A stretch of 43,697 bases of DNA from Glaciihabitans sp. Its GTDB lineage: Bacteria > Actinomycetota > Actinomycetes > Actinomycetales > Microbacteriaceae. The notes beneath the pieces were generated by a model. That model was given only the letters and a program-made list of their open reading frames with translations. It had not been told where the DNA came from and searched no databases. Positions 18,835 through 25,387 of this stretch are shown piece after piece. A program made the position numbers and the translations under genes. How positions within the stretch are numbered: position 1 is the first letter of the stretch; each line of letters begins with the position of its first letter. The stretch is taken from NCBI GenBank assembly GCA_017882805.1, contig JADGOT010000059.1, positions 1-43,697 on the forward strand, written 5' to 3'.

Positions 18835-18976
18835 TCCATGAGCGACCCGATGGCAAGAGCCGGGTGGGAAACGTGCAATAATCGACGTTGTAGACCCTGT
18901 TAGGGCCTGTACGCACTGTTCACCTTTGTGGTGACCGGCGTCAGGACTTGACAAGGGTCTTAGTTGTGCCGCCGCA

Positions 18977-19023
18977 CGGCAACAACACAGCGCACGGAAA
19001 CAACACAGACGGTAACAACACAG
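18977..19023 (+). repeat. Three direct repeats CGG(C/A/T)AACAACACAG in the sigma-factor leader
   Basis: Copies at 18977-18990, 18995-19008 and 19010-19023; offsets 18 and 15 nt. Confidence 0.8.
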
Positions 19024-19119
19024 ATTTTTGCGCCGCGAAGCAGCGACCACGAACACGGTGTCTACGAAGTACTAAGCAACAGCAATCAATACCCCTAAAG
19101 ACGAAGGATGGGTGTTCGC

Positions 19120-20562
<1,443 letters not shown>

Positions 20563-20566
20563 GCCA

Positions 20567-21961
20567 GTGCGCGCACCGCGCCTGCTGCTCACACTGCGCT
20601 TGTTGATAGCGGTGGGGGTGGCCAAGCTCGCGGGTGTGGCTATTCGCGCGATCGGCCGGCAGGGAACTCACACCCCCGGCCTGATCGCGCGGAAGCTCTA
20701 CCCGGGAATCATCGGCGCGATCCGCCATCCGGCGCGCGTGGTGGTGGTAACGGGCACAAACGGTAAGACCACGGTGTCGAACCTGCTCACTGAGGCACTC
20801 CTGGGCGAGGGAATGCGCGTTGCGAGCAACCGCATCGGATCTAACCTTGCTGCCGGCATCGCAACGACGCTTGTTGGCGCCGTGAGCTGGACCGGCAAGC
20901 CGAGAGTCGATATCGCCGTCCTGGAGATGGATGAGCGGTCCGCAAAACTGGTGCTCCCGGGGCTCGCCCCCGATGTTCTGGTGTGCATGAACCTCACCCG
21001 CGACTCGATCAAGCGAAACGCCCATCCCGCGTACATTGCATGGATCGTGTCGTCGGCGCTGTCTGAATCCACCAGCCTCGTGCTCAACGCGGACGACCTG
21101 ATCGCCTCGTCGCTCGGGACTGAAGCCAATCCGCGCACCTACTTCGCTGTCGACCGCTTGCCAACGGACGGGACCACGCCGCGCGGCGCAGCGGTGGATG
21201 TCGCGATCTGTCCGGTGTGCGATTCTCGGCTCGAGTGGGACTACTGGCGGTTCAACCACATTGGCAAGGCACACTGCCCAACGGGCGACTTCCGTTCACC
21301 CGAGGCGACCTTTCGGGCGACTGAAATTGATGCTTCGGCCGGTCGGGTCACGCTCGAGCTCGACGGCGAGAGCCGCCAGGCTCGACTCATCAACGACAAC
21401 ATCGTCAACGTGTACAACGAGATTGCCGTCGCCGCGACGCTCGATCGTCTCGGGGTGACGAAAGATCGCATTGTGGCAGCCTTCGAGCACCTGGAGCCAC
21501 CGACGACACGGTTTGCGCTCGAGGTCGTCGGCCGGGTGCAACTCGTGCGGCTGCTGACGAAAGGGCTGGTCGGCGTCGCCTGTTCGCGGGCGTTCGAATA
21601 TCTGGCGACTTTTGCTGGTCGCAAGGCAATCGTGCTCAACATCGATGAGGTCAGCGAGCGCGTGACCGAGGTCGAGAACACCGCCTGGACTTACGACGCC
21701 GACTATGAATACCTAGCGAACGACTCGCTCGGTCAAGTTGTCGTCGGGGGAGTACGGCGGTACGACCAGGCGCTGCGGCTGGCAATCGCCGGCGTCGACC
21801 CCGCGCGCATCGTGACCGTCCAGTCGGAGATCGCGGGGGCGGATCAGGTTGAGCTCGAGGGAGTCGACGACGTCTTTAACCTTCACAGCGTGCACAACGC
21901 CGTAATCACTGGCACGCCGGTGCAGGAACGACTTCGAGCTCGACTGCAGGAGCGCCAGTGA
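20567..21961 (+). CDS. murT: Mur ligase family protein, MurT-like
   Basis: VTGTNGKTTVSNLL P-loop, CPVC...NHIGKAHC ribbon insertion, C-terminal DUF1727-like region; overlaps the GatD-like gene by 4 nt; GTG start. Confidence 0.9.
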   Translation: MRAPRLLLTLRLLIAVGVAKLAGVAIRAIGRQGTHTPGLIARKLYPGIIGAIRHPARVVVVTGTNGKTTVSNLLTEALLGEGMRVASNRIGSNLAAGIATTLVGAVSWTGKPRVDIAVLEMDERSAKLVLPGLAPDVLVCMNLTRDSIKRNAHPAYIAWIVSSALSESTSLVLNADDLIASSLGTEANPRTYFAVDRLPTDGTTPRGAAVDVAICPVCDSRLEWDYWRFNHIGKAHCPTGDFRSPEATFRATEIDASAGRVTLELDGESRQARLINDNIVNVYNEIAVAATLDRLGVTKDRIVAAFEHLEPPTTRFALEVVGRVQLVRLLTKGLVGVACSRAFEYLATFAGRKAIVLNIDEVSERVTEVENTAWTYDADYEYLANDSLGQVVVGGVRRYDQALRLAIAGVDPARIVTVQSEIAGADQVELEGVDDVFNLHSVHNAVITGTPVQERLRARLQERQ

Positions 21962-22722
21962 GTCGCGCGCTAACCATCGAGATGCTGTTCCCGGAGATCG
22001 CAAATCTTCATGGGGACAACTTCAACATCACGTACCTGTCGCAGTGTCGCCCTGACGCGCGGGTGATTCGCACCGGGCTCACCGACACGCCGGCCTTCGT
22101 CTCAGGTCCCGTCGATCTGATCTACCTCGGCCCTTTGACCGAGCAAGGACAACTCAAGGCTGTCGAACGGCTGACGCCGCACCGCGACCGGATCGAGGCG
22201 CTGATCGAGTCGGGAACGATGTTCCTGTTCACCCACAATGCGCTCGAAGTTCTGGGTACCCGCATTCGCAACGACGAGATGCACTACGACGTGCCCGGCG
22301 TTGGCATCTTCGAACTGGAGTCGACCCTCGCGATGTTCGGACGGTACAACGGCAAGGTCATTGGCACGGTGCCGGGGGTCGGGCCTGAGCATCCGGTCGT
22401 CGGCTACAAGTCGCAGTTTTCGATGGTTGCCGCGCCCGAGTCCCTGCCTGGGTTCTTCACCGCGGATCGCGGGATCGGTCGCAATTCGGCCACTGCAGTC
22501 GAGGGTGTTCGCAGAAACAACTTTCTGGGCACCTCGCTGCTTGGGCCGATTCTTGTTGACAACCCGCACTTCGCGCGGGCTCTACTCGCGCAGCTCGACC
22601 CGGACACCGAGCCGATGCTTGCTCATGAGGAATTTGCGCTGGCGGCCTACGATGCCCGACTCGCCGACTTTAGGGATGAGCGCCGCTGGCACCCCTTCGA
22701 GCGCATCCGATCATCTGCGTAG
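21958..22722 (+). CDS. GatD-like class I glutamine amidotransferase homologue lacking catalytic Cys and His
   Basis: MLFPEIANLHGDNFNI, FVSGPVDLIYLGPLTEQGQL and NFLGTSLLGPILVDNP align with GatD; nucleophile region reads FLFTHNALEVLG instead of (V/I)CGG(Y/F)Q. Confidence 0.85.
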   Translation: MSRALTIEMLFPEIANLHGDNFNITYLSQCRPDARVIRTGLTDTPAFVSGPVDLIYLGPLTEQGQLKAVERLTPHRDRIEALIESGTMFLFTHNALEVLGTRIRNDEMHYDVPGVGIFELESTLAMFGRYNGKVIGTVPGVGPEHPVVGYKSQFSMVAAPESLPGFFTADRGIGRNSATAVEGVRRNNFLGTSLLGPILVDNPHFARALLAQLDPDTEPMLAHEEFALAAYDARLADFRDERRWHPFERIRSSA

Positions 22723-23293: not shown

Positions 23294-25387
23294 GTGGCAA
23301 GTTCCGACTACTCCGCGAGGCACCTCTCGGTGCTCGAGGGGCTTGAGGCTGTCCGCAAGAGGCCCGGCATGTACATCGGGTCGACGGATGCCCGCGGCCT
23401 CATGCACTGTCTTTGGGAGATCATCGACAACTCGGTCGACGAGGCTCTCGCTGGCCACGGATCAACCATCGAGATTGTGCTGCACCCCGACAATTCCGTT
23501 GAGGTTCGCGATCGCGCCCGCGGCATCCCCGTCGACATCGAACCAAAGACCGGTCTCACCGGCGTCGAGGTCGTGTTCACGAAGCTGCACGCCGGCGGCA
23601 AGTTTGGCTCGGGCTCATACGCGGCGTCCGGAGGTTTGCACGGCGTCGGCGCCTCAGTCGTCAATGCGCTGTCCGAGCGCCTCGATGTCGAGGTCGATCG
23701 TGACGGCAAGACCTACGCAATGTCGTTTCACCGCGGCGAGCCCGGCACGTTCGCAGATACCGACCCAGCAGTCCCGACCCCGGATGCCCCATTTTCGCCG
23801 TTCCTTTCCGGCAGCGAGCTGCGCATCGTCGGCAAGGTTGCCAAGAACGTCACCGGCACGCGCATCCGCTACTGGGCCGACTCGCAGATCTTCACTCGTG
23901 GCGCGGATTTCCAAACCGATGAACTCATGGCACGTGCTCGACAGACGGCCTTTCTCGTGCCAGGAATCAGCCTCGACATCGAAGACCGTCGCGGCGCCGA
24001 GCCCATCTCGTCCTCGTTCAGTTTCGCCGGCGGCATCTCCGAGTTTGTCGAGTACCTGGCCCAGGACGCCCCGCTCACCGACACCTGGCGGATGCAGGGT
24101 GCCGGTACCTTCACCGAGACGGTCCCCGTGCTGCAGCCGACCGGCGCAATGATGCCAACCGAACTCACGCGTACCTGTGACGTTGACATCGCACTTCGCT
24201 GGGGAACCGGCTACGACACGGTTTTCAAGAGCTTCGTCAACATCATTGCGACGCCCAAGGGCGGCACTCATCAGGCCGGTTTTGAACAAGGCATGATGAA
24301 GTTTCTCCGGTCGCAGGTCGAACTGAACGCGCGTCGGCTCAAGGTGGGTACCGACAAGCTCGAGAAGGACGACATTCTCGCGGGACTGACCGCCGTGCTC
24401 ACGGTTCGGCTGCCCGAGCCGCAGTTTGAGGGCCAGACCAAGGAAGTTCTGGGAACGCCGGCCGTGCGCAACATCGTCGCCGCGGTCATCGCGAAGACCA
24501 TGGCAGAGAGGTTCGGTTCATCCAAGCGCGACGACAAGGCGCAGTCGGCGCTCGTGCTCGACAAGATCGTCGCGGAGATGAAGTCGCGCATCTCGGCACG
24601 CGCCCACAAAGAGACTCAACGACGTAAGAACGCCCTCGAGAGTTCGTCGCTGCCTGCGAAACTCGTCGACTGCCGATCGAATGACGTACTCAACACGGAG
24701 CTAATGATCGTCGAGGGTGACTCAGCGCTCGGCACCGCAAAGCTCGCCCGTGATAGCGAGTATCAGGCGCTTCTCCCCATCCGGGGCAAGATCCTCAACG
24801 TGCAGAAGGCATCCGTTTCCGACATGCTCGGCAACGCCGAGTGTGCCTCGATCATTCAGGTGGTGGGGGCGGGTTCTGGCCGCACCTTCGATATCTCGCA
24901 GGCGCGCTACGGCAAGATCATCATGATGAGCGACGCCGACGTCGATGGTGCCCACATCCGCACTCTGCTACTGACCCTGTTCTTCCGCTATATGCGGCCC
25001 ATGATCGAAGAGGGTCGAGTATTCGCCGCCGTGCCTCCGCTCCATCGCGTGATCGTGATGAATCCCGGCTCAAAACCCAACGAGACGATCTACACCTACT
25101 CGGAGGCCGAACTTGCCGGTGTGCTCGCAGGGCTTAAGCGATCAGGCAAGCGCTACCAGGACCCCATCCAGCGCTACAAGGGACTCGGCGAGATGGATGC
25201 CGACCAGCTCGCGACAACCACAATGGATCGCCGTCATCGCACCCTGCGGCGCGTCACAGTCAAGGATGCTGCTGCCGCCGAGGAGGCGACAAGGGTTTTT
25301 GAGCTTCTCATGGGCAATGAGGTGGCGCCCCGAAAAGAGTTCATCGTCGCGGGGGACGGATTCGATCGATCGCGAATTGACTCCTAG
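23294..25387 (+). CDS. parE: DNA topoisomerase IV subunit B
   Basis: LEGLEAVRKRPGMYIGSTDARGLMHCLWEIIDNSVDEALAG, MIVEGDSALGTAK, MMSDADVDGAHIRTLLLT. Confidence 0.95.
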   Translation: MASSDYSARHLSVLEGLEAVRKRPGMYIGSTDARGLMHCLWEIIDNSVDEALAGHGSTIEIVLHPDNSVEVRDRARGIPVDIEPKTGLTGVEVVFTKLHAGGKFGSGSYAASGGLHGVGASVVNALSERLDVEVDRDGKTYAMSFHRGEPGTFADTDPAVPTPDAPFSPFLSGSELRIVGKVAKNVTGTRIRYWADSQIFTRGADFQTDELMARARQTAFLVPGISLDIEDRRGAEPISSSFSFAGGISEFVEYLAQDAPLTDTWRMQGAGTFTETVPVLQPTGAMMPTELTRTCDVDIALRWGTGYDTVFKSFVNIIATPKGGTHQAGFEQGMMKFLRSQVELNARRLKVGTDKLEKDDILAGLTAVLTVRLPEPQFEGQTKEVLGTPAVRNIVAAVIAKTMAERFGSSKRDDKAQSALVLDKIVAEMKSRISARAHKETQRRKNALESSSLPAKLVDCRSNDVLNTELMIVEGDSALGTAKLARDSEYQALLPIRGKILNVQKASVSDMLGNAECASIIQVVGAGSGRTFDISQARYGKIIMMSDADVDGAHIRTLLLTLFFRYMRPMIEEGRVFAAVPPLHRVIVMNPGSKPNETIYTYSEAELAGVLAGLKRSGKRYQDPIQRYKGLGEMDADQLATTTMDRRHRTLRRVTVKDAAAAEEATRVFELLMGNEVAPRKEFIVAGDGFDRSRIDS

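Follow-up and report, generated by a model that had tools for sequence, protein, structure and literature searches.

A MurT/GatD-like gene pair without glutaminase residues in Glaciihabitans: a candidate ligase for the first bridge residue of type-B peptidoglycan

The gene pair at the locus and the loss of its glutaminase triad

We analyzed a stretch of 43,697 nucleotides from Glaciihabitans sp. (hereafter the window), in which two adjacent genes on the + strand encode a MurT/GatD-like pair. The upstream gene (20567..21961, GTG start) encodes a MurT-like Mur ligase subunit of 464 aa, of the class that we call window-type, with Pfam MurT_C and Mur_ligase_M matches above cut-off. The downstream gene (21958..22722, +, GTG start) overlaps the former by 4 bp and encodes a GatD-like subunit of 254 aa lacking the glutaminase residues, as assigned from homology and an AlphaFold model. 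By synteny, the slot is bordered on the left by a gene for a primary sigma factor of the RpoD type (19108..20562, +), and on the right by one for a DNA gyrase B/ParE-type topoisomerase subunit (23294..25387, +). Just upstream of the sigma factor gene lies a short tandem repeat (18973-19024, period 15-18; ACGGAAACAACACAG). The window genome (3.0 Mb, 84% complete) has a single MurT.

The window MurT is complete, as it has the Mur ligase middle domain, the MurT_C domain and a zinc ribbon with three of the four cysteines (Cys215, Cys218 and Cys237, 21209..21277, +), the fourth being replaced in this copy according to the alignment. It matched the MurT structures 7q8e/6gs2 in the PDB with E = 1e-46, and the best structural matches of its AF2 model (pLDDT 91.5) were MurT 6h5e/9sq9. 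The earlier note had described the partner as collinear with GatD, and this was borne out: phmmer matched residues 5-210 to S. aureus GatD (5n9m/6gs2; E about 1e-5), and the AF2 model (mean pLDDT 94.7) had GatD 6gs2_A as its best PDB match at TM 0.81. The Pfam GATase_3 match was below cut-off. The model indicates that the GatD fold is intact despite the lost glutaminase residues. Both the homologous folds and the nested position in the MurT tree place the pair within the MurT/GatD superfamily. Neither subunit reached the curated equivalog profiles NF045635/NF045636 and NF052463/NF052464 (22-26 bits versus 400-450 for GatD; 138-166 versus 800 for MurT), and the mean identity of the window GatD is 22% to canonical GatD versus 36% to its own class.

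Next, we compared the glutaminase residues with those of the S. aureus enzyme. The position of the GatD nucleophile, Cys94, is occupied by His93 in the window (22234..22236, +; FLFTHNALEVLG), that of the catalytic His189 by Leu195 (22540..22542, +; within GTSLLGPIL), and the FENHGG segment reads GYKSQFS. The third residue of the triad, Asp349 of MurT, which the earlier note had missed, aligns with Asn371 (21677..21679, +). No Cys or His is invariant or near-invariant among 39 homologues (even Cys30 is Cys in only 22/39), and therefore a functional Cys/His dyad elsewhere in the fold, the finding that could have overturned the earlier claim of a catalytically dead GatD, is ruled out. Going by the alignments, the glutaminase is lost as a unit, with GatD Cys, GatD His and MurT Asp all gone. 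Of the features expected of an isoglutaminyl synthase, the window pair lacks the Cys/His, the Asp349 and the RDQxDRxxE loop of MurT.

The ligase half is preserved in the window. The MurT has its P-loop for ATP binding (GTNGKTT, Gly63-Thr69, 20753..20773, +), the Mg-binding acids, the acceptor Asn85 and the hinge Arg304. Asn85 is the residue in contact with the acceptor carboxylate, these roles in ATP binding, Mg binding and acceptor contact having been assigned earlier (PMC6085368).

A conserved subfamily with a rebuilt gate loop

We aligned 221 pairs, obtained from a scan of named genomes and from family and order samples, and sorted them into four classes: canonical (76), window-type (68), Microbacteriaceae type 1 (M1; 65) and a remainder of 12. 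The window-type class comprises Actinobacteria, many Clostridia, and MAGs labelled Erysipelothrix and Eubacteriaceae. Throughout its 68 pairs, neither Cys94 (0/68) nor His189 (0/68) is present, the nucleophile position being Gly in 32 and His in 7 of the 39 homologues. MurT Asp349, which is Asp in 76/76 canonical pairs, is so in 2/68 window-type ones, where it is mostly Asn. The MurT residues K59, T60, N85, E108, the DE pair, R304 and N267 are kept at 98-100%, and the T60 equivalent is Thr in 68/68.

The interface of the two subunits has changed as well. In S. pneumoniae MurT, the loop 135-143 faces GatD and probably acts as the gate of the ammonia channel (PMC6085368). We observed the loop RDQxDRxxE in 76/76 Cys-containing and 0/144 Cys-less pairs (220 pairs); the GatD Cys, the GatD His and this loop co-occur in all the 76 Cys pairs, whereas the loop is rebuilt in all the 144 others. 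In the window, this GatD-facing loop reads RDSIKRNAH (Arg145-His153, 20999..21025, +), and its window-type consensus is RDSxxRNAH, with Gln replaced by Ser in 68/68, Asn at the seventh position in 68/68 and Glu replaced by His in 90%.

The GatD subunit has changed along with it. The arginine that captures glutamine in GatD (R128; the R128A mutant is inactive, PMC5871853) is retained as Arg129 in the window (22342..22344, +), in 39/39 homologues and in 99% of the 68 pairs. Two fixed acidic residues have been gained: Glu62 (22141..22143, +), which is Glu in 39/39 window-type and Asp in 100% of canonical GatD, and Glu97 (22246..22248, +), which is Glu or Asp in 39/39 and Gln in 100% of canonical GatD. 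A pocket of this basic-plus-acidic character would be a fitting site for an amino acid, and for a diamino acid in particular.

In comparison with the canonical MurT/GatD of S. aureus, S. pneumoniae and M. tuberculosis, the window-type pairs have the same two adjacent genes, folds, MurT residues for ATP and acceptor, zinc ribbon, GatD Arg128 and GP interface segment, but differ in the absence of the GatD Cys/His and the MurT Asp349 and in having RDSxxRNAH in place of RDQxDRxxE. The M1 pairs resemble the window-type in their Cys-less GatD, in the rpoD-parE slot and in the family that carries them. However, they are of independent origin, have no zinc ribbon, keep Asp349 in 65/65 and His189 in 69%, and have a loop reading xDQ, the first Arg of which is lost in 65/65.

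The earlier note had allowed for a non-catalytic remnant. Against this, the dN/dS of GatD within the window clade is 0.10-0.33 (with partial saturation of the synonymous sites), and the residues specific to the class are conserved from phylum to phylum, at a mean identity of 36%. These values rule out a recent pseudogene and indicate that the window pair is no relic but belongs to a conserved subfamily under purifying selection.

In the MurT tree, calculated with the gate loop left out, M1 forms one clade inside the actinobacterial canonical MurT, while the window-type and the remainder together make up a separate clade placed among the MurT of Firmicute type, with a Propionibacteriaceae sequence as the sister of the window clade. 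A single loss of the Cys, with all the Cys-less pairs held together, was rejected (AU p = 3.7e-5). The tree and the AU test rule out one loss common to all Microbacteriaceae and indicate that the Cys was lost at least twice, independently. The notion of a single Microbacteriaceae invention did not survive, as the window pair falls in a widespread, mostly clostridial subfamily, whereas the slot is filled in most Microbacteriaceae by another pair that became Cys-less independently. Two very divergent Cys-less Microbacteriaceae pairs (L062 of G005 and L063 of G053) cluster with the Cys-less clade of Clostridia.

In the family sample, each of the eight window-type loci directly follows rpoD, as do most M1 loci; where the flank is long enough, parE comes next in many of them, among these an M1 genome of the same genus (L082). 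No rpoD or parE adjoins the canonical Microbacteriaceae pairs. Since both Cys-less types share the rpoD-parE slot, the simplest reading is that one replaced the other in place as its functional equivalent. Both types occur in one Glaciihabitans MAG (G217), possibly through contamination.

Wall types and gene neighbours of the Cys-less pairs

Microbacteriaceae are known for their type-B walls. In this family, 74 of the 88 sampled pairs were without the GatD Cys, with two further ones besides, whereas all 26 pairs of the order's other families were canonical, with Cys, His and loop kept. At the level of the family, the Cys/His state matched the wall type, and the glutaminase loss is real, selected and typical of this type-B family. 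The mapping was less clean within the family: 23 of the 120 sampled Microbacteriaceae genomes (about 20%) have no MurT and 12 have a canonical pair only, and wall types were assigned through the labels of genus and family. A search of 25 Microbacteriaceae with the MurT_C profile found none, and thus a missed divergent MurT was rejected as the explanation of the MurT-less genomes; G001, G019 and G020 are among these 25. If the 23 genomes are of type B, another enzyme therefore serves them.

Published wall types are available for several of the labels. Glaciihabitans walls contain diaminobutyrate (DAB) and are of type B10 (PMC7033078), D-DAB is the residue that connects D-Glu with D-Ala in Clavibacter (PMC9603630), and the Rhodoluna wall is B2beta (PMC4156110). 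Erysipelothrix rhusiopathiae has a B1delta wall with D-Glu-Gly-L-Lys (PMC4062643), Eubacterium includes B2alpha, and Staphylococcus is A3alpha (PMC11382707). Window-type pairs occur in MAGs labelled Erysipelothrix and Eubacteriaceae, and the Staphylococcus pairs are canonical; the sample of the family that contains Erysipelothrix is mixed, having both canonical and Cys-less pairs, the canonical ones including those of the 3.6-3.9 Mb genomes G243 and G261. Among the carriers are numerous MAGs from clostridial lineages for which no wall type is described.

We then inspected the genes adjoining the window-type pairs. A gene for diaminobutyrate--2-oxoglutarate transaminase (ectB) lies within about 130 bp of a window-type pair in 5 genomes. 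It directly adjoins the pair at L186/L188/L189 (one lineage), L209 (with fused MurT-GatD), L210 and L218, and a window-type-like pair at L286. At L286:3949-7136, in a Propionibacteriaceae MAG (G218), ectB, MurT and the Cys-less GatD form one apparent operon; the same genome carries another pair, of the window-type (L174), with lysC upstream and MurJ downstream. For the 14 genomes having both genes, the chance expectation of such adjacency is, by a crude estimate, about 0.03. Outside Microbacteriaceae, the transaminase gene was present in only 14/51 window-type genomes, versus 1/28 canonical Firmicute genomes (Fisher p = 0.014, kinship ignored). Neither the window genome (84% complete) nor any other window-type Microbacteriaceae genome has a member of the transaminase family; as 21 of the 120 Microbacteriaceae genomes have it and none of them is window-type, it was rejected as a marker of the window-type pair in this family. 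Elsewhere, an alanine-racemase-family gene follows L175 and MurC follows L204. Genes for ATPgrasp_ST (PF14397) ligases lie at or near six window-type loci (L199, L201, L214, L221, L223 and L174), and these ligases might add a second bridge residue.

A candidate bridge ligase and its rivals

We propose, with a probability of roughly 60%, that the pair is a glutaminase-free amino acid ligase, derived from the lipid II amidotransferase MurT/GatD, which starts the type-B bridge. Like the canonical enzyme, MurT would use ATP to convert the alpha-carboxyl of the stem-peptide D-Glu to an acyl phosphate. The attacking amine would then be that of an amino acid (a diaminobutyrate-like diamino acid or glycine, by lineage) instead of glutamine-derived ammonia, and the product would carry the first residue of the type-B cross-bridge. 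GatD, no longer catalytic, would complete the active site as a partner subunit, and its former glutamine pocket may bind the incoming amino acid. That the acceptor is lipid-linked D-Glu is inferred, as are the identity of the donor amino acid and the new role of the pocket; the donor is probably lineage-dependent, DAB where ectB adjoins and others elsewhere. The idea of the earlier note, MurT activation combined with another nucleophile, gains backing from the conserved MurT residues, the rebuilt loop and the neighbouring genes for diaminobutyrate synthesis.

Known systems offer points of comparison. When free NH3 is supplied at pH 8.5, S. aureus MurT together with GatD-C94G can amidate lipid II, while this mutant pair is inactive with NH3 at pH 7.5, and MurT alone is inactive, GatD being still needed (PMC3266927); a dead GatD is therefore a workable partner. 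MurC-MurF and pMurC of pseudomurein synthesis share the middle and C-terminal domains and are likewise ATP-dependent carboxylate-amine ligases; they couple amino acids, as is proposed here for the window pair. The archaeal MurT-like proteins are MurT-type ligases without a glutaminase, but in them the GatD gene is altogether absent, whereas the window-type keeps a conserved dead GatD (PMC11915815).

The activity of the C94G pair at pH 8.5 and the conserved MurT chemistry also fit a pair that still makes D-isoGln, having dispensed with the glutaminase and using free ammonia or ammonia from another protein. We consider this improbable, though it is the foremost of the rivals: the same mutant failed at pH 7.5, the gate loop, instead of being kept, has been rebuilt around new fixed residues, genes for diaminobutyrate synthesis lie next to the pair, and an amidated D-Glu could not bear the bridge in type-B walls. 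Somewhat less probable still is a ligase acting on an acceptor other than a peptidoglycan precursor, for instance in making a DAB-containing metabolite. Only some of the neighbours are wall genes, the window flanks being rpoD and parE, and where ectB is adjacent, the window-type genes could act in the synthesis of a different DAB product; yet the chromosomal slot is stable across the family without secondary-metabolism genes, MurJ, MurC and racemase genes adjoin the pair elsewhere, the acceptor-carboxylate Asn85 is invariant, and the family in which the Cys losses cluster is one defined by its wall chemistry. That the pair is a decaying remnant, with GatD as a non-catalytic regulator or assembly factor and MurT without a ligase role, would agree with the disappearance of all glutaminase residues and with the absence of the genes from 23/120 relatives, but is very unlikely in view of the low dN/dS, the ATP and acceptor residues kept almost throughout and the new class-specific invariant residues across phyla.

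On a broader scale, we would give even odds to MurT/GatD having been converted at least twice, independently, from an amidotransferase delivering ammonia to an amino acid ligase founding the type-B bridge, the window-type, spread in gut Clostridia, having passed from a lineage of this kind to Microbacteriaceae and replaced M1 there in place. If this is true, uncultured gut bacteria would have type-B-like walls much more often than the records show.

To our knowledge, no enzyme has been assigned to the first step of type-B bridge formation, the addition of a residue to D-Glu, and the open literature that we searched, with most subscription journals outside it, yielded no paper linking MurT/GatD to type-B walls. 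The window-type pair is a concrete two-gene candidate for this step. If our preferred reading, an amino acid ligase, is right, the annotation of such pairs as isoglutaminyl synthase/cobyric acid synthase would be wrong, wall type would become predictable from genomes, and the signature of Cys, His and RDQxDRxxE would sort amidating from non-amidating pairs.

MurT and a Cys-less GatD are fused in one ORF at three loci (L209:4977-7196, L205:4935-7169 and L220:227-2581), and ectB follows the fused gene at L209. A fused MurT-GatD next to ectB is also the arrangement in Lachnospiraceae C6A11, a cultured carrier, for which DAB on D-Glu would be predicted. Further Cys-less grades with other loops, such as RDQIVRNCC, KDQVQRNGE and RDQLTRNGH, were found at L229, L230, L234, L240, L246, L260, L263, L266 and L283, and these possibly use other donors.
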